64,000 bases of DNA from positions 186,001 through 250,000 of the forward strand of contig NZ_SWKK01000004.1 of the NCBI RefSeq assembly GCF_005144745.1, written 5' to 3'. The position numbers and the translations under genes were made by a program. The notes beneath the pieces were generated by a model. It was not told where the DNA came from. It did not search any database and saw only the letters and a program-made list of their open reading frames with translations. Shown here in pieces: positions 8,817 to 15,277 of this stretch (the first letter of the stretch is position 1; each line of letters starts with the position of its first letter). The DNA comes from Flavobacterium sp. ASW18X. Its GTDB lineage: Bacteria; Bacteroidota; Bacteroidia; Flavobacteriales; Flavobacteriaceae.

Positions 8817-11678
8817 TTATACTGCTTTTGCTATATTTTTTTTAGCTTCTTCTAATTCGTTTTTTAAAAATCTTGCCGTATGGCTTTTGGTATTTTTTGC
8901 TACCTGTTCTGGGGTACCTTCTGCAACAACTTGTCCGCCACCTTTACCACCTTCGTAGCCAATATCTATAACGTGGTCTACCATTTTAATAACATCTAAA
9001 TTATGTTCTATCACTAAAACAGTATTCCCTTTGTCTACCAATTTATTAAGAACTTCCATTAGTACACGAATATCTTCAAAATGTAATCCCGTGGTAGGTT
9101 CGTCCAAGATATAAAAAGTATTTCCGGTATCCCGTTTAGAAAGTTCTGTAGCTAACTTAACGCGCTGCGCCTCTCCACCGGATAGTGTAGTAGATTGCTG
9201 ACCTAGACTAATATAGCCTAAGCCCACATCTTTAATAGTTTTTAGTTTTCTGTGAATTTTAGGAATATTCTCAAAAAAATCCACCGCTTCGTTAATGGTC
9301 ATTTCTAAAACATCTGCAATAGACTTCCCTTTATAACGTATTTCTAAGGTTTCTCTGTTAAAACGCTTGCCGTGGCACGTTTCACATTCAACATATACAT
9401 CTGGTAAAAAGTTCATTTCTATCACCTTTAATCCACCGCCCATGCAAGTTTCACATCTACCGCCAGCTACGTTAAAACTAAAACGTCCGGGTTTATACCC
9501 TCTTATGGTTGCTTCTGTGGTTTTGGCAAATAAAGAACGTATTTCACTAAAAACACCAGTGTACGTAGCCGGGTTAGACCTTGGAGTACGACCAATTGGA
9601 CTTTGGTTGATATCTATGACCTTATCTATATGTTGCAGCCCTGTTATTTTTTTGTAAGGCATTGGTTTTTTTACGCCATTAAAATAATGAGCATTCATAA
9701 TAGGGTAGAGTGTCTCATTAATTAAAGTAGACTTACCACTGCCAGAAACTCCAGTAACGCCAATCATCTTACCCAAAGGAAATTTCACGGTAATATTTTT
9801 AAGGTTATTACCTGTACAACCACTTAACGTAATGTTTTTCCCAGTTCCTTTCCGTCTATTTTCTGGTACAGCAATTTCTTTACTGCCATTTAAATATTGA
9901 GCTGTTAGCGTTTGGTGTTGGTCTAATTCTGACGGTGGCCCTTCTGATATAATTTCACCACCGTGCTTCCCAGCTCTAGGACCTATGTCTATGACGTGGT
10001 CGGCAGCTAAAATCATATCCTTATCATGCTCAACCACAATAACAGAATTTCCTATATCCCGAAGTGAAACTAAAGAGTTTATAAGGCGTTCATTGTCTCT
10101 TTGATGCAAACCAATACTAGGCTCATCTAGAATATAAAGTACCCCAACCAATTGTGAGCCAATTTGTGTAGCCAAACGTATACGTTGTGCTTCCCCACCA
10201 GATAGTGTTTTAGAGCCTCTGTTTAACGACAAATAGTCTAAGCCAACATCTAACAAAAACTGCAAACGGGTTCTAATTTCTTTTACTATTTCTTCGGCAA
10301 TTTTCTTTTGATTCCCTTCTAAAGTAGCTTCTAGCTCTTTAAAAAATGTTGCAAGCTCAACAATGTCCATATGGGCCAACTCCGCAATATTTTTGCCATT
10401 AACTTTAAAATAAAGAGATTCTTTTTTAAGCCGAGCACCACCACACGTAGGACAGGTTGTTTTATCCATAAAATCCTTGGCCCAACGTTTTATACTGGTA
10501 GAGTTAGCTTCATTAAATTGTGATTTTATAAAATTGGATATTCCTTCATAATCAATCTTATAATCGCGTTTTACTCCTAGGGTTTTAGAATTAACAGAGA
10601 AACTTTCTTTACCGCCGTTTAAAATAATTTCCAAAGCGTTTTTAGGAATATCTGCTATTGGCGTGTCCAATTCAAAATTATACCGCTGAGCAATAGTTTC
10701 TAATTGCTTAAATGCCCAAGAACGTTTGTACTCCCCTAAAGGAGCTATGCCACCACTTTTTATAGATAATTTGTCATTCGGAATTATTTTCTGCTCATTA
10801 ACTTGGTAAACATGCCCAAGACCATTGCATTCTGGACACATTCCTCTGGGTGAATTAAAGCTAAAGGTGTTGGGCTCTGGGGTAGGGTAAGAGATTCCAG
10901 ATTCTGGACACATTAAATCGCGACTAAAATAGCGCGGTTCTTTTTCGCCTTCTTCTAAGACCATCATCACGTTTTCACCACTGTACATGGCCGTGTTGAT
11001 GCTTTCCATTAAACGTTTATCAAAATCGGCACCTTGCCCAACTTTTAAGCGGTCTATAACAATTTCTATATCATGGGTTTTGTAACGGTCTACTTTCATC
11101 CCTTTGGTGATGTCAGTAATTTCTCCGTCTATACGCACCTTTACAAAACCCTGCTTGCCTATTTGTTCAAATAGTTCCCGATAGTGCCCTTTTCTAGATT
11201 TGATTACAGGAGCTAGAATATTTATTTTACTATCTGTATAGGTTTCAAGAATTAACTCCTTTATTTGAGCATCACTATAGCTTACCATTTTTTTACCTGT
11301 AACATAGCTATAAGCATCCCCAGCACGGGCAAACAGTAAACGTAAAAAGTCATAAACCTCCGTAATAGTACCCACAGTGGACCTAGGAGATTTAGAGGTG
11401 GTTTTTTGCTCAATAGCAATCACTGGAGAAAGACCATCAATTTTGTCTACTTCTGGTCTTTCCAAACCACCTAAAAATTGCCTAGCATAGGCAGAAAATG
11501 TTTCTATATAACGTCTTTGGCCTTCTGCATAAATGGTATCGAAAGCCAAAGAAGATTTACCACTACCAGATAAGCCAGTAATAACAACAAGCTTTTCTCT
11601 AGGGATGGTTACGTCTATATTTTTAAGATTGTGTACGCGAGCACCGCGGACTTCAATATTTTCTTCGTAGTTAATCAT
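8817..11678 (-). CDS. uvrA: Excinuclease ABC subunit A
   Basis: Damage-recognition ATPase of nucleotide excision repair, which loads UvrB on DNA. The protein has 953 residues from the ATG at 11678; an in-frame TTG at 11702 would add 8 residues but the family normally begins close to IEVRGARVHNLKN. Two ABC modules are visible: Walker A GLSGSGKSSL near the start and GVSGSGKSTL in the second half, signature motifs LSGGEAQRIRLA and LSGGEAQRVKLA, and zinc-finger cysteine pairs (CPECNGLG, CPTCGGARL, CETCMGGG, CETCHGKRF). First gene of an operon with the LOG and M1-like genes. No TTGGA-N5-TCCAA box is seen upstream. Confidence 0.97.
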   Translation of the reverse strand: MINYEENIEVRGARVHNLKNIDVTIPREKLVVITGLSGSGKSSLAFDTIYAEGQRRYIETFSAYARQFLGGLERPEVDKIDGLSPVIAIEQKTTSKSPRSTVGTITEVYDFLRLLFARAGDAYSYVTGKKMVSYSDAQIKELILETYTDSKINILAPVIKSRKGHYRELFEQIGKQGFVKVRIDGEITDITKGMKVDRYKTHDIEIVIDRLKVGQGADFDKRLMESINTAMYSGENVMMVLEEGEKEPRYFSRDLMCPESGISYPTPEPNTFSFNSPRGMCPECNGLGHVYQVNEQKIIPNDKLSIKSGGIAPLGEYKRSWAFKQLETIAQRYNFELDTPIADIPKNALEIILNGGKESFSVNSKTLGVKRDYKIDYEGISNFIKSQFNEANSTSIKRWAKDFMDKTTCPTCGGARLKKESLYFKVNGKNIAELAHMDIVELATFFKELEATLEGNQKKIAEEIVKEIRTRLQFLLDVGLDYLSLNRGSKTLSGGEAQRIRLATQIGSQLVGVLYILDEPSIGLHQRDNERLINSLVSLRDIGNSVIVVEHDKDMILAADHVIDIGPRAGKHGGEIISEGPPSELDQHQTLTAQYLNGSKEIAVPENRRKGTGKNITLSGCTGNNLKNITVKFPLGKMIGVTGVSGSGKSTLINETLYPIMNAHYFNGVKKPMPYKKITGLQHIDKVIDINQSPIGRTPRSNPATYTGVFSEIRSLFAKTTEATIRGYKPGRFSFNVAGGRCETCMGGGLKVIEMNFLPDVYVECETCHGKRFNRETLEIRYKGKSIADVLEMTINEAVDFFENIPKIHRKLKTIKDVGLGYISLGQQSTTLSGGEAQRVKLATELSKRDTGNTFYILDEPTTGLHFEDIRVLMEVLNKLVDKGNTVLVIEHNLDVIKMVDHVIDIGYEGGKGGGQVVAEGTPEQVAKNTKSHTARFLKNELEEAKKNIAKAV

Positions 11679-11792
11679 AGCACAAGATGCTAAAGTAAAC
11701 AATTGACATTTAAATTGGAAGTGACTTACTGTTGCTAATTTGTTAATTGATGTCTTATTTTTACCCTACAAACCATTTTTTATACTTGATAT

Positions 11793-12362: not shown

Positions 12363-13136
12363 CTACACCGCTTTTTTCTCACTCAAATACTTCCAATATC
12401 TTTTGGGTACATGTTGGGTATGTAGTTTTTTATTAATTCTAGATTTAATGTTAGTGCTATTAAAATAATTACCCCATAATTCTTGATATTGATGTTCTTC
12501 ATCTTTTAGTAAATTACTCTTTTTAAGGCTATTGTGTAATTGTGCAGTTAAATCTATAGTAACCATCTCTACTTTATCGCCATGATAGTGTATGCCATAA
12601 CCCCTCTTTCTGTCATATATAAGCCATTCTTGGTCTGCATATCTGTTTCTAAAATGTTTAGAAATAAGGGGTAATACATTAAAATCTGGCTCTACAATAG
12701 CAAAGTAAATAGCGTCTTTTGTTAATTGAAAACGTACAAAGGCTTCCATTCGGTGTTTTTCTCTACCTACTTTTTTCGCCAATTGATTTATGTATAACAC
12801 CAATTTATCACTGTAATCCAAGTGTTCATTTTTCTTACTGTATATAATTTTAGATATATATTGGTATAGCTGTACTTCTATTCCTTCAGTTTCACTTAAA
12901 AAAGCAAAATAAGCAGTATTAAGAGCATTGTTATTTTTAGCCTTTAAACCTTTCCACACCCGATGCGCTTTTTTTACTTCTGTATATACTTCTTCTGTGG
13001 AGGCGAAAAGGCCATTTTGAGCAGCACTTTTTCTTTGGATATCTGCTATTTTAAGTTTTTCATCAAAAGCTTTAAATATGCAGCTAAGGAAGCCGTTAAA
13101 ACTACCGTCGTAAATTAAAGTGGTCATTACAGTCAT
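12363..13136 (-). CDS. TIGR03915 family putative DNA repair protein
   Basis: A 257-residue protein of the TIGR03915/DUF4130 family, recognised from the TLIYDGSFNGFLSCIFKAF start and the FVRFQLTKDAIYFAIVEPDFNVLPLISKHF core. Family members occur beside, or fused to, uracil-DNA-glycosylase-like domains and beside the TIGR03916 radical SAM protein; no activity is proven. It follows that partner after 17 bases on the same strand. Two in-frame ATGs (13136, 13127) are possible; the second gives the usual MTTLIYDG start. Expression is probably controlled by the operator array at 14425-14498 through the shared transcript. Confidence 0.88.
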   Translation of the reverse strand: MTVMTTLIYDGSFNGFLSCIFKAFDEKLKIADIQRKSAAQNGLFASTEEVYTEVKKAHRVWKGLKAKNNNALNTAYFAFLSETEGIEVQLYQYISKIIYSKKNEHLDYSDKLVLYINQLAKKVGREKHRMEAFVRFQLTKDAIYFAIVEPDFNVLPLISKHFRNRYADQEWLIYDRKRGYGIHYHGDKVEMVTIDLTAQLHNSLKKSNLLKDEEHQYQELWGNYFNSTNIKSRINKKLHTQHVPKRYWKYLSEKKAV

Positions 13137-13153
13137 AAACAGGGTGCTTAGAA

Positions 13154-14419
13154 TTAATTTGTAAAAAGAGATAGCTGATTGCTATATTGTGTTCTAAATT
13201 TACTTTGAGAATTACGTAGAATTAAATTTTTAATTCCCTCCGCTTCTATATCCTTTTTATGCCAATCTTTAGAGTTGCATATCAAAAAATATTGTGCACG
13301 GTTAAGTGCTACACCAATTTTTTTTAAGTGTTCCCAGTTTAACTGTCTAAATTTTCTTGCATTTAAAATTTTGTAAACCGATTTAGTTCCCAAACCTGGA
13401 ACACGTAGTAACATGGATTTATCAGCGCTATTAACATCAACTGGAAAATAATGCATATTACGCAATGCCCAAGAAAGCTTAGGGTCTATATCATGGTCTA
13501 AATTGGGGTGAGATTCATCTAAAATTTCATTTACTGAAAAGCCGTAAAACCGAAGCAGCCAATCAGTTTGGTAGAGTCGATTCTCTCTTAACATGGGCAC
13601 TTGAGAAGTGATAGAAGGCAGTCTACTATCTTGTATTACGGGTACGTAGCCAGAATAATATACCCTTTTCATATGGTATTTTTTGTAATAATAGGTAGCA
13701 GAGTACATTATATCCTTGTCAGATTCACCAGAAGCACCCACAATCATTTGAGTGCTTTGCCCAGCAGGAGCGTACTTGGGTGTGCTTTTTATTAGTTTTC
13801 GTTCGTTCTTATACCGTATTAATTCATTTTTAACCTTCAACATAGGTTTTGTAAAGTCTTCATGCTTTTTTTCTGGTGCCAAAAGTTTAAGGCCAGATAC
13901 GGTGGGGACTTCTATATTAACCGATAAACGGTCTGCATACAAACCAGCTTCATACATTAATTCATCACTACAACCAGGAATAGATTTTAAATGAATATAT
14001 CCGTTAAAATTCTCTTCTTGGCGCAGTTTTTTGGCAACTTGCACCAAACGTTCCATAGTGTAATCAGCATTCTTAAAAATGCCTGAGCTTAAAAAAAGAC
14101 CTTCAATATAATTTCTTCGGTAAAAATTTATGGTTAAATCCACTACTTCTTGTATTTTAAAAGCAGCACGTTTAACATCATTACTACGGCGCGTAACACA
14201 ATAAGCACAATCAAAAATGCAGTGGTTAGTTAACAATATTTTCAATAAACTCACACATCTACCATCCTCTGTATAGCTATGGCAAATACCCATGCCAGTG
14301 CTATTTCCTAAGCCTTTATTGGAGTTTTTCCTAGTACTGCCACTACTTGCGCAAGACACATCATACTTAGCAGCATCTGCAAGGATGTTTAACTTCTCTT
14401 TTATTCGTTCAAAGTTCAC
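13154..14419 (-). CDS. Radical SAM putative DNA modification/repair protein (TIGR03916)
   Basis: A 421-residue radical SAM enzyme. The cluster-binding Cys-X3-Cys-X2-Cys is at residues 67, 71 and 74 (CIFDCAYC). Near the C-terminus, residues about 338-355 (LRVPGLGTKSVYKILNAR) form a helix-hairpin-helix DNA-binding motif. Other cysteines (C23, C46, C55) could serve a second site. The family is always linked to TIGR03915 proteins and is thought to act on DNA, but the reaction is not known. The start is a GTG at 14419; the frame is closed by a stop 15 bases upstream. It is divergently transcribed from the S24 repressor, and the gap is packed with repressor-type boxes. Confidence 0.92.
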   Translation of the reverse strand: MNFERIKEKLNILADAAKYDVSCASSGSTRKNSNKGLGNSTGMGICHSYTEDGRCVSLLKILLTNHCIFDCAYCVTRRSNDVKRAAFKIQEVVDLTINFYRRNYIEGLFLSSGIFKNADYTMERLVQVAKKLRQEENFNGYIHLKSIPGCSDELMYEAGLYADRLSVNIEVPTVSGLKLLAPEKKHEDFTKPMLKVKNELIRYKNERKLIKSTPKYAPAGQSTQMIVGASGESDKDIMYSATYYYKKYHMKRVYYSGYVPVIQDSRLPSITSQVPMLRENRLYQTDWLLRFYGFSVNEILDESHPNLDHDIDPKLSWALRNMHYFPVDVNSADKSMLLRVPGLGTKSVYKILNARKFRQLNWEHLKKIGVALNRAQYFLICNSKDWHKKDIEAEGIKNLILRNSQSKFRTQYSNQLSLFTN

Positions 14420-14436
14420 AACAATTGGTTTTTATC

Positions 14437-14444
14437 CAAAAATA
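14437..14444 (-). promoter_or_regulatory. -7 element of the radical SAM operon
   Basis: TATTTTTG on the minus strand fits TAnnTTTG and ends 17 bases before the GTG start. It overlaps operator box 1 at its end and box 2 at its first base. Confidence 0.55.
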
Positions 14445-14478
14445 TGGAAATAATCCAATAATTGGAAATTGTCCAAAA

Positions 14479-14486
14479 TATTTTTG
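14479..14486 (+). promoter_or_regulatory. -7 element of the S24 repressor gene
   Basis: TATTTTTG fits TAnnTTTG, lies between operator boxes 3 and 4 and overlaps the first three bases of box 4. It ends 29 bases before the ATG at 14516. Confidence 0.55.
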
Positions 14487-14515
14487 GAAATTATCCATAA
14501 ATAGTATATTTGACT

Positions 14516-15277
14516 ATGGAAAATGAGCTGACTTTAAAGCGTTTTGTAGAAATTAGAAGGGAATTAGGATATACCCAAGTACAATTTGCTGCACTTTTAG
14601 GTGTCTCTAATACTACGGCAGATATAGAACGGGGACGTACTAAATTATCTGGAAAAGTAATAGCAGAATTATTGAAACAATTTAAGGTGAATCCACTTTG
14701 GTTGTATGGAGATAGTGAAGAGAAATATTTAGAAACAGCAAAAATTAGCGTTATCCCCAAAGTAGTTACGGTAGATAATATGGAAAGGGATAATATGGTT
14801 TTGGTAAATGCGAAAGCAGCAGCGGGTTATCCGCAAAATATTCAAGATACTACCTGGTACCAACAATTACCAGCGTTTGATTTACCTATCCCCGAATTTA
14901 GAAATGCTACGTACCGCGGTTTTCAGGTAGAAGGAGATAGTATGCTCCCTAATTTACGTTCTGGAGAATGGGTTTTAGCAAAAGCTGTAGAACATATAGA
15001 TTATGTTTCTGCCAATAAAATGTACGTTGTGGTGTTGCAAGATTCCGTTATGGTAAAAAAAGTTGAAAAGCGCCCTAATTCTAACAACATCACTTTAATT
15101 TCTTTGAATGAAAATTATCCGCCTTACGAGATAAAACCTTTTCAAATACAAGAGATTTGGGAAGTTAGCAGTAAGCTCACTTTTAATTTAGATGCAACTA
15201 CAGAGACTGGTTTACTAAAACAATTGCAAGCCTCTATGGACGACTTAAAAAAACAATTAGGACAAGTTAAAAACTAG
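14516..15277 (+). CDS. LexA-like self-cleaving repressor (XRE HTH plus S24 peptidase domain)
   Basis: A 253-residue transcription regulator. Residues about 8-66 form an XRE-type helix-turn-helix (YTQVQFAALLGVSNTTADIE). The C-terminal S24/LexA-like domain has a candidate Ala103-Gly104 cleavage bond (AAAGYP), Ser142 in VEGDSM and Lys181 in VMVKKV; the Ser-to-Lys distance (39) is close to that in LexA (37). All elements for RecA-stimulated self-cleavage are therefore present. Beyond the LexA-like domain is a 35-residue tail with a short coiled coil (LLKQLQASMDDLKKQL). The ATG at 14516 is preferred over an in-frame TTG at 14510. It sits divergent from two DNA-repair genes behind four palindromic boxes, so it probably represses itself and them and is inactivated by DNA damage. 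A prophage origin is not supported, because no phage genes are near. Confidence 0.9.
   Translation: MENELTLKRFVEIRRELGYTQVQFAALLGVSNTTADIERGRTKLSGKVIAELLKQFKVNPLWLYGDSEEKYLETAKISVIPKVVTVDNMERDNMVLVNAKAAAGYPQNIQDTTWYQQLPAFDLPIPEFRNATYRGFQVEGDSMLPNLRSGEWVLAKAVEHIDYVSANKMYVVVLQDSVMVKKVEKRPNSNNITLISLNENYPPYEIKPFQIQEIWEVSSKLTFNLDATTETGLLKQLQASMDDLKKQLGQVKN

Follow-up and report, generated by a model that had tools for sequence, protein, structure and literature searches.

A conserved operator array between a non-canonical LexA-type repressor and a radical SAM–TIGR03915 gene pair in Flavobacteriaceae: a well-supported SOS switch and its putative partners

The window analyzed here is a 64,000-nucleotide stretch of the genome of Flavobacterium sp. 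ASW18X (contig NZ_SWKK01000004.1, positions 186,001 to 250,000; 3.61 Mb in 74 contigs), in which a short gap separates a plus-strand repressor gene from a minus-strand operon encoding a radical S-adenosylmethionine (SAM) protein of the TIGR03916 family and a TIGR03915 protein. Four palindromic boxes and the promoter elements of both directions lie in this gap (Table 1). The nearest named protein (86–87% identity) belongs to the flavobacterium Croceivirga radicis. A sequence-only reading of the locus had proposed an SOS-like switch acting on both sides of the gap, and this proposal is well supported: the operators are conserved and registered to both −7 elements, and both gel shifts and a response to mitomycin C have been published for a homologous system (Sanchez-Osuna et al. 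2021, PMC8565304). For the comparisons below, repressor relatives were counted at E ≤ 1e-20 and were found in 42 of 119 related genomes; the 30 best-scoring of these 42 loci, the window's locus among them, were read in detail. A second set, the named relatives, consisted of the best 80 of 481 that were kept, and these 80 loci were searched for the three proteins of the locus and uvrA only. Boxes were scored as the published strict motif GGA-N5-TCC or as the longer form TTGGA-N5-TCCAA, and an array was called present at a score of ≤8.

Table 1. Features of the divergent locus (window coordinates) and the small orphan gene on contig C7 discussed in the text
Feature	Position	Strand	Remarks
TIGR03915 / DUF4130 protein	12363..13136	-	predicted DHH (RecJ/Cdc45)-like core ~1-234, conserved tail ~232-255
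TIGR03916 radical SAM protein	13154..14419	-	C-terminal helix-hairpin-helix (HhH) region; GTG start
Box 1, degenerate: TTGGTTTTTATCCAA	14425..14439		overlaps minus -7 element
Minus -7 element TATTTTTG, radical SAM operon	14437..14444	-	
Box 2: ATGGAAATAATCCAA	14444..14458		strict GGA-N5-TCC; abuts minus -7 element
Box 3: TTGGAAATTGTCCAA	14462..14476		exact palindrome
Box 4: TTGGAAATTATCCAT	14484..14498		occupies spacer of plus promoter
Plus -7 element TATATTTG (TAnnTTTG)	14505..14512	+	TTTG 14483-14486, on the box 4 edge, lies 18 bp upstream
Non-canonical LexA-type repressor, HTH_3 + Peptidase_S24	14516..15277	+	Ala103-Gly104, Ser142, Lys181; ATG start
94-residue orphan protein (~90-residue family)	G000:C7:15564-15845 (L150:2165-2446; L259)		behind tandem GGA-N5-TCC site

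The plus-strand protein carries an HTH_3 domain (PF01381, 35.2 bits) and a Peptidase_S24 domain (PF00717, 53.7 bits), both above the gathering scores, and no match to a LexA DNA-binding Pfam family or a LexA NCBIfam family was obtained at E ≤ 1. The self-cleavage residues that had been noted, Ala103-Gly104, Ser142, and Lys181, are all in place when counted from the ATG at 14516, which we prefer as the start over the TTG at 14510, a codon that falls within the −7 element. The protein is the sole match to itself in its own genome at E ≤ 0.001, and each of 29 relatives, about 54–86% identical to it, has at least one exact GGA-N5-TCC upstream. In domains, residues, and operator type, the protein matches the non-canonical LexA of Flavobacteriaceae, specifically the GGA-N5-TCC group, so that the switch itself is already known.

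The four palindromes of 15 bp described earlier were found at the expected places with spacings of 19, 18, and 22 bp; the earlier description of all four as TTGGA-N5-TCCAA held for box 3 only, each of the others having one mismatch. Under the strict motif, the gap contains three operators (boxes 2, 3, and 4), and box 1 reads GGT-N5-TCC. The array as a whole has mismatches at 3 of 40 positions, compared with a minimum of 9 in 5,000 dinucleotide shuffles, and is far beyond chance. The radical SAM gene itself holds a further exact GGA-N5-TCC, at 14321; none of the other 29 loci read showed a site at that place, and we attribute it to chance.

Both promoters carry TAnnTTTG, which we take to be the Bacteroidetes −7 element. 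The minus-strand element had been placed correctly, and its complement CAAAnnTA is fixed relative to box 2 in all 79 relatives scanned. The plus-strand element had been placed at 14479–14486, where the letters are indeed present; the match is not conserved (8 of the 24 loci with a divergent repair gene, judged by eye), and it is an element resembling TATATTTG that is kept in 22 of the same 24 loci (again by eye). Measured from box 4, TAnnTTTG occurs at an offset of +21 in 75 of the 79 scanned relatives and of +22 in three, with none in one. The ATG of the repressor gene lies only 4 bases past this element, and for this reason its mRNA in the window may be leaderless; many relatives have their aligned start at a more downstream position.

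The array proved to be a conserved property of loci that keep the repair genes. It was present in 22 of the 24 loci in which a radical SAM or TIGR03915 gene is divergent to the repressor gene and in none of the six loci with an unrelated neighbor, which hold just one or two exact sites. All 80 named relatives have a four-box array, in 79 cases within the 330 bp scanned and in the remaining one (L199) 650–710 bp upstream of the aligned start, and no shuffle of the relatives' sequences reached the array score (0 of 1,600). The spacings in relatives are 19 or 23, then 17–18, then 22–23 bp. Relatives with 19 bp as the first spacing keep box 1 half broken, mostly as TTGTA-N5-TCCAA; in those with 23 bp it is mostly intact. 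The tie between boxes and repressor was also apparent from the radical SAM genes: TIGR03916, searched for at E ≤ 1e-60, was found in 27 of the 119 relatives, divergent to the repressor gene in 18 and elsewhere in nine. Each of the 18 adjoining genes is accompanied, within 160 bp, by two to four sites that match GGA-N5-TCC exactly, and none of the nine located elsewhere has an exact site in 330 bp, one of them (L079) showing a single TTGGA-N5-TCCAA match with two mismatches.

The sequence-only reading had taken the module to be self-contained, that is, a local switch governing just the two sides of the gap. Two observations from the window's genome agree with this: tandem TGGA-N5-TCCA occurs there in the gap only, and the four other exact TTGGA-N5-TCCAA sites of the genome (L001, L003, L004, and L005), rejected as operators, lie inside long open reading frames. 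Against it, the same boxes stand in tandem, 19 bp apart, before dinB–dnaE in 11 of 11 genomes of the genus (the second box of the window's genome has one dyad mismatch; the dnaE-type neighbor of dinB there has a PHP domain), and further tandem boxes are found in two genus genomes, ahead of a radical SAM gene of another type, and in the window's genome, ahead of a small orphan gene. A purely local switch is therefore very improbable. Of 27 dinB genes found in 40 genomes, 17 are from genomes that have a strong repressor match, and tandem boxes precede 14 of these 17 versus 0 of 10 of the rest (Fisher p = 3e-5, uncorrected for relatedness). The dinB proteins of the window's genome and of genome G007 (L018/L088 and L089) are 99.8–100% identical. 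Because they are nearly identical despite only 86% identity of the two repressors, a recent exchange of dinB–dnaE between these genomes is possible.

A search for tandem boxes in the 11 genus genomes gave 36 places on the forward strand versus 4 in the reversed control, the repressor and dinB sites included; from these 36, we read those that are AT-rich, look palindromic, and do not belong to the repressor or dinB. They yielded the radical SAM gene of another type mentioned above, supported by a radical SAM Pfam match in one of its two genomes; we assume it to be PA0069-like. One tandem site (L152, genome G005) was discarded since it falls in an open reading frame, and another (L147, genome G004) had no convincing target. 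Looked for upstream of other SOS genes, as the sequence-only reading had proposed, boxes were found before dinB–dnaE and not before recA, which was rejected as a target with exact sites in 0 of 11 genus genomes. Likewise, no exact GGA-N5-TCC was found upstream of uvrA or of the genome's two genes of the uracil-DNA glycosylase (UDG) family; the UvrA-like gene of the window lies at 8817–11702 on the minus strand.

The orphan gene behind tandem boxes encodes a protein that reaches the cut-off of no Pfam or NCBIfam family. Its neighbors on contig C7 resemble ParA and a replication protein when judged by eye (the latter has no Pfam match), and the contig may be mobile; a search of a plasmid collection returned no relatives of the orphan. 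Relatives occur in 12 of 299 genomes of the family, the window's included, and in genome G003 at 41% identity. We read 16 places where the gene occurs: at 13 of them a pair of exact GGA-N5-TCC sites lies in the 45 bp upstream, one has a near pair, and the two without boxes are L257, which has stops, and L258. SRAP-type genes adjoin the orphan in 8 of 14 places (judged from protein starts; confirmed by Pfam for L263), and umuDC with Ku stands beside it at one other place. From its operators and neighbors, we regard this family as a candidate for a compact new SOS gene.

These results fit a switch that works as follows. Repressor dimers would bind boxes 2–4, with box 1, half broken as it is, perhaps a weak additional site. 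In the promoter of the repressor gene, box 4 takes up the spacer from the −33 to the −7 element, and in that of the divergent operon the −7 element is flanked and overlapped by boxes 1 and 2; bound there, the repressor would shut off both directions. After DNA damage, RecA filaments would promote cleavage at Ala103-Gly104, as the published family and the residues of this protein lead one to expect, and the repressor would be released, turning on its own gene, the TIGR03916–TIGR03915 pair, dinB–dnaE, and the small orphan gene. The protein might instead activate its targets after damage, and the published study of the family states that activation could not be discarded without non-cleavable mutants (PMC8565304); the location of box 4 in a promoter spacer and of box 2 against a −7 element, positions typical of repression, makes this quite improbable. 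The HTH_3 type of the N-terminal domain, which is that of phage repressors, would also suit the repressor of a prophage, domesticated or resident, with an array that runs phage-like or mobile functions rather than SOS genes. The neighbors of the locus, however, are a UvrA-like gene and others unlike phage genes (by eye), and the UvrA-like gene follows TIGR03915 on the same strand, 0.6–3.5 kb away, in all 40 named loci that reach so far (drawn from 79 named loci with TIGR03915). Since the family has moreover been published as an SOS regulator (PMC8565304), a prophage origin of this kind is barely credible; phage genes were not searched for in the named loci.

Several observations weigh against the SOS switch as set out above. 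The recA gene has no exact site in any of the 11 genus genomes, four of which show one stray match each with two mismatches; dinB stands without boxes in 3 of the 17 repressor-bearing genomes; the array is weak or was not found in two of the 24 loci with a divergent repair gene; and genome G020 has its radical SAM gene some 6 kb away from the repressor gene and without a box. Box 1 fails the strict motif, in which dyad substitutions abolished binding (PMC8565304), and the minus promoter lacks a good −33 element. Single boxes are also not enriched: WTGGA-N5-TCCAW occurs 23 times genome-wide versus 28 in the reversed control, and TTGGA-N5-TCCAA with one mismatch allowed occurs 193 versus 153 times. 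Tandem boxes and conservation alone were therefore taken as evidence; a lone site means little, given that 259 of 2,000 stretches of 341 bp drawn at random from the loci contain one or more exact GGA-N5-TCC sites. With these points considered, we hold it to be highly probable that the repressor acts on both sides of the gap in an SOS response.

The identification of the minus-strand genes was confirmed, with scores of 677.1 bits for TIGR03916 (cut-off 343.5) and 268.5 bits for TIGR03915 (cut-off 112.25). In the radical SAM protein, the CX3CX2C motif (C67, C71, and C74) and an HhH region can be seen in the sequence as described earlier; the Pfam matches for both fall below their gathering scores. 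Cys23, Cys46, and Cys55 are invariant in 24 of 24 proteins, as are C67 and C74, making a second cluster site possible; C71 is replaced by Ser in one relative, Maribacter arcticus (L175). A structure model of this protein, with a predicted local distance difference test score (pLDDT) of 51, was too poor for use, and a profile search against PDB gave weak RuvA matches alone, which were set aside. To our knowledge, the TIGR03916–TIGR03915 pair has no defined reaction. A literature search with most subscription journals outside its coverage found neither such a reaction nor further work on the pair or the regulator; searching by family name returned a single paper, in which DUF4130 appears as a remark in a figure legend (PMC3765255).

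The two genes do not always occur together. Within the roughly 5 kb covered, 16 of the 80 named loci lack the radical SAM gene, and 15 of these 16 keep TIGR03915 behind the array. Mapped on the repressor tree, the presence and absence of the radical SAM gene require 10 changes, seven of them forced by well-supported branches, and the changes are best read as losses. Six genomes with TIGR03915 beside the repressor gene (L034, L038, L044, L048, L049, and L057) have no TIGR03916 anywhere in the genome at E ≤ 1e-60. At one of these loci (L044), TIGR03915 is shortened to 219 residues and separated from the repressor gene by a gap of about 300 bp, and at four other, related loci without the radical SAM gene (L186, L195, L196, and L217) it has 200 residues and no tail.

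The C-terminal tail of TIGR03915, residues 232–255, tends to be kept with the partner. In 65 paired proteins, the window's included, 21–24 of its 24 positions agree with the consensus; among the 15 unpaired proteins, ten retain 0–12 positions and two retain 19–20, and the tail is gone outright in five. Across six independent pairs, the tail follows the radical SAM partner in four to five and never the opposite (sign test p = 0.06–0.13). The tail is probably a docking motif, to judge from this pattern. The same decay could reflect relaxed selection on the whole of TIGR03915, with no specific docking motif. The body does decay as well, with 77–136 of 184 consensus residues kept in the ten most decayed proteins versus a paired minimum of 123, and the ratio of nonsynonymous to synonymous substitution rates (omega) is higher in unpaired proteins (0.07–0.14; 6 measurable of 10) than in paired ones (0.01–0.08; 10 of 18), with synonymous divergence mostly near saturation. 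Without its partner, then, the body evolves faster and is still under purifying selection. What speaks for a specific role of the tail is that 35 positions kept in ≥95% of paired proteins show no change in any of the 15 unpaired proteins while five of these lose the tail outright (Y9-D10-G11, F13-N14-G15, W61, D175, and G181 are among the residues kept in 15 of 15), and that the tail, although predicted to be disordered, hardly varies across the 65 paired proteins. The sign test itself goes no further than the values given above. We accord relaxed selection appreciable, though less than even, weight.

A model of TIGR03915 built from 56 sequences had a pLDDT of 80, with residues 239–257 under 50. 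The best Foldseek match was PAP phosphatase (E = 1.5e-4, probability 1.00), which we take to be a DHH protein, with RecJ and Cdc45 weaker; in VIA-align with residues 1–234, RecJ, Cdc45, and DHH phosphodiesterases filled most of 50 rows, with Z up to 9.2. A RecJ/Cdc45-like DHH fold is thus predicted from the model, without support from sequence profiles: a profile search against PDB gave no match, and no Pfam DHH match was obtained in the 56 members. When inspected by eye, the protein has DGSFNG in the place of DxDG and no DHH motif. As Ser12 and Asn14 appear to stand where motif I would have its metal-binding aspartates, a non-catalytic, Cdc45-like role is expected. Two points count against the docking-and-fold interpretation: 3 of the 15 unpaired proteins keep the full tail (23 of 24 positions), and Z values of 8–9 are in a range where chance similarity is possible. 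We consider docking and fold together possible, at best an even proposition. The pair would probably form one repair unit, in which TIGR03915 would bind DNA and its flexible tail would dock the radical SAM enzyme. The fullest model, which we put forward tentatively and would sooner expect to fail in some part than to hold entirely, is that TIGR03915/DUF4130 acts in the SOS response as a non-catalytic RecJ/Cdc45-like clamp on damaged or single-stranded DNA, recruiting TIGR03916 via its disordered tail; that it has a second role independent of the radical SAM protein, for which it is kept under the SOS operators where the enzyme was lost; and that the repressor also controls the possibly mobile small protein.

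The switch is conserved and known, and what is new here is the putative docking tail and predicted fold of TIGR03915 and the small orphan family. The switch at this locus confirms an SOS system that has been published for a large marine family but little tested, and sharpens it, in that the operators are registered to both −7 elements and the regulon of the genus leaves out recA. The same operators point to genes of unknown chemistry, and with a predicted RecJ/Cdc45-like partner, its putative docking tail, and natural losses of the radical SAM gene, the division of labor within the pair becomes directly testable.

In comparison with canonical LexA, the repressor shares the S24 self-cleavage residues and the placement of SOS genes under palindromic operators; it differs in its phage-type HTH_3, which replaces the winged LexA domain, and in its operator. 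The earlier remark that the operator is unlike known LexA boxes accordingly stands for classical LexA only, the motif having been published in 2021 (PMC8565304). That paper describes the regulator family, its GGA-N5-TCC motif and its distribution in Flavobacteriaceae, with gel shifts of dyad mutants and mitomycin C induction; the tested S. agarivorans protein of the GGA-N5-TCC group is WP_075324850.1, and the predicted regulon comprises dinB, DNA polymerase III alpha, SRAP (COG2135), COG1573–COG4277, and the regulator gene. The present locus is like this non-canonical LexA in its HTH_3–S24 architecture, Ala-Gly site, Ser/Lys residues, and occurrence in Flavobacteriaceae, in having GGA-N5-TCC in its own promoter and before dinB–dnaE, and in that COG4277 belongs to the predicted regulon; it differs in that the genus has no box before recA. 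The Results of that paper do not describe the divergent order of the genes, the conserved array of four boxes, its registration to both −7 elements, or the degenerate box 1 (PMC8565304).

Against the DHH phosphoesterases (RecJ, Cdc45, NrnA, and PAP phosphatase), the TIGR03915 model aligns over residues 1–234; it differs from them in its identity of ≤12% in the superfamily rows and in the replaced motif-I aspartates (by eye). TIGR03916 and TIGR03915/DUF4130 are linked elsewhere to a UdgX-type UDG, as the NCBIfam name rSAM_link_UDG also implies, and COG4277 presumably corresponds to TIGR03916. Both proteins here exceed the curated cut-offs of those families; in contrast to the UDG-linked systems, the operon contains no UDG, and the genome's two UDG-family genes lie elsewhere without exact boxes. 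With the published COG1573–COG4277 operon, the pair has its predicted SOS control in common (PMC8565304).

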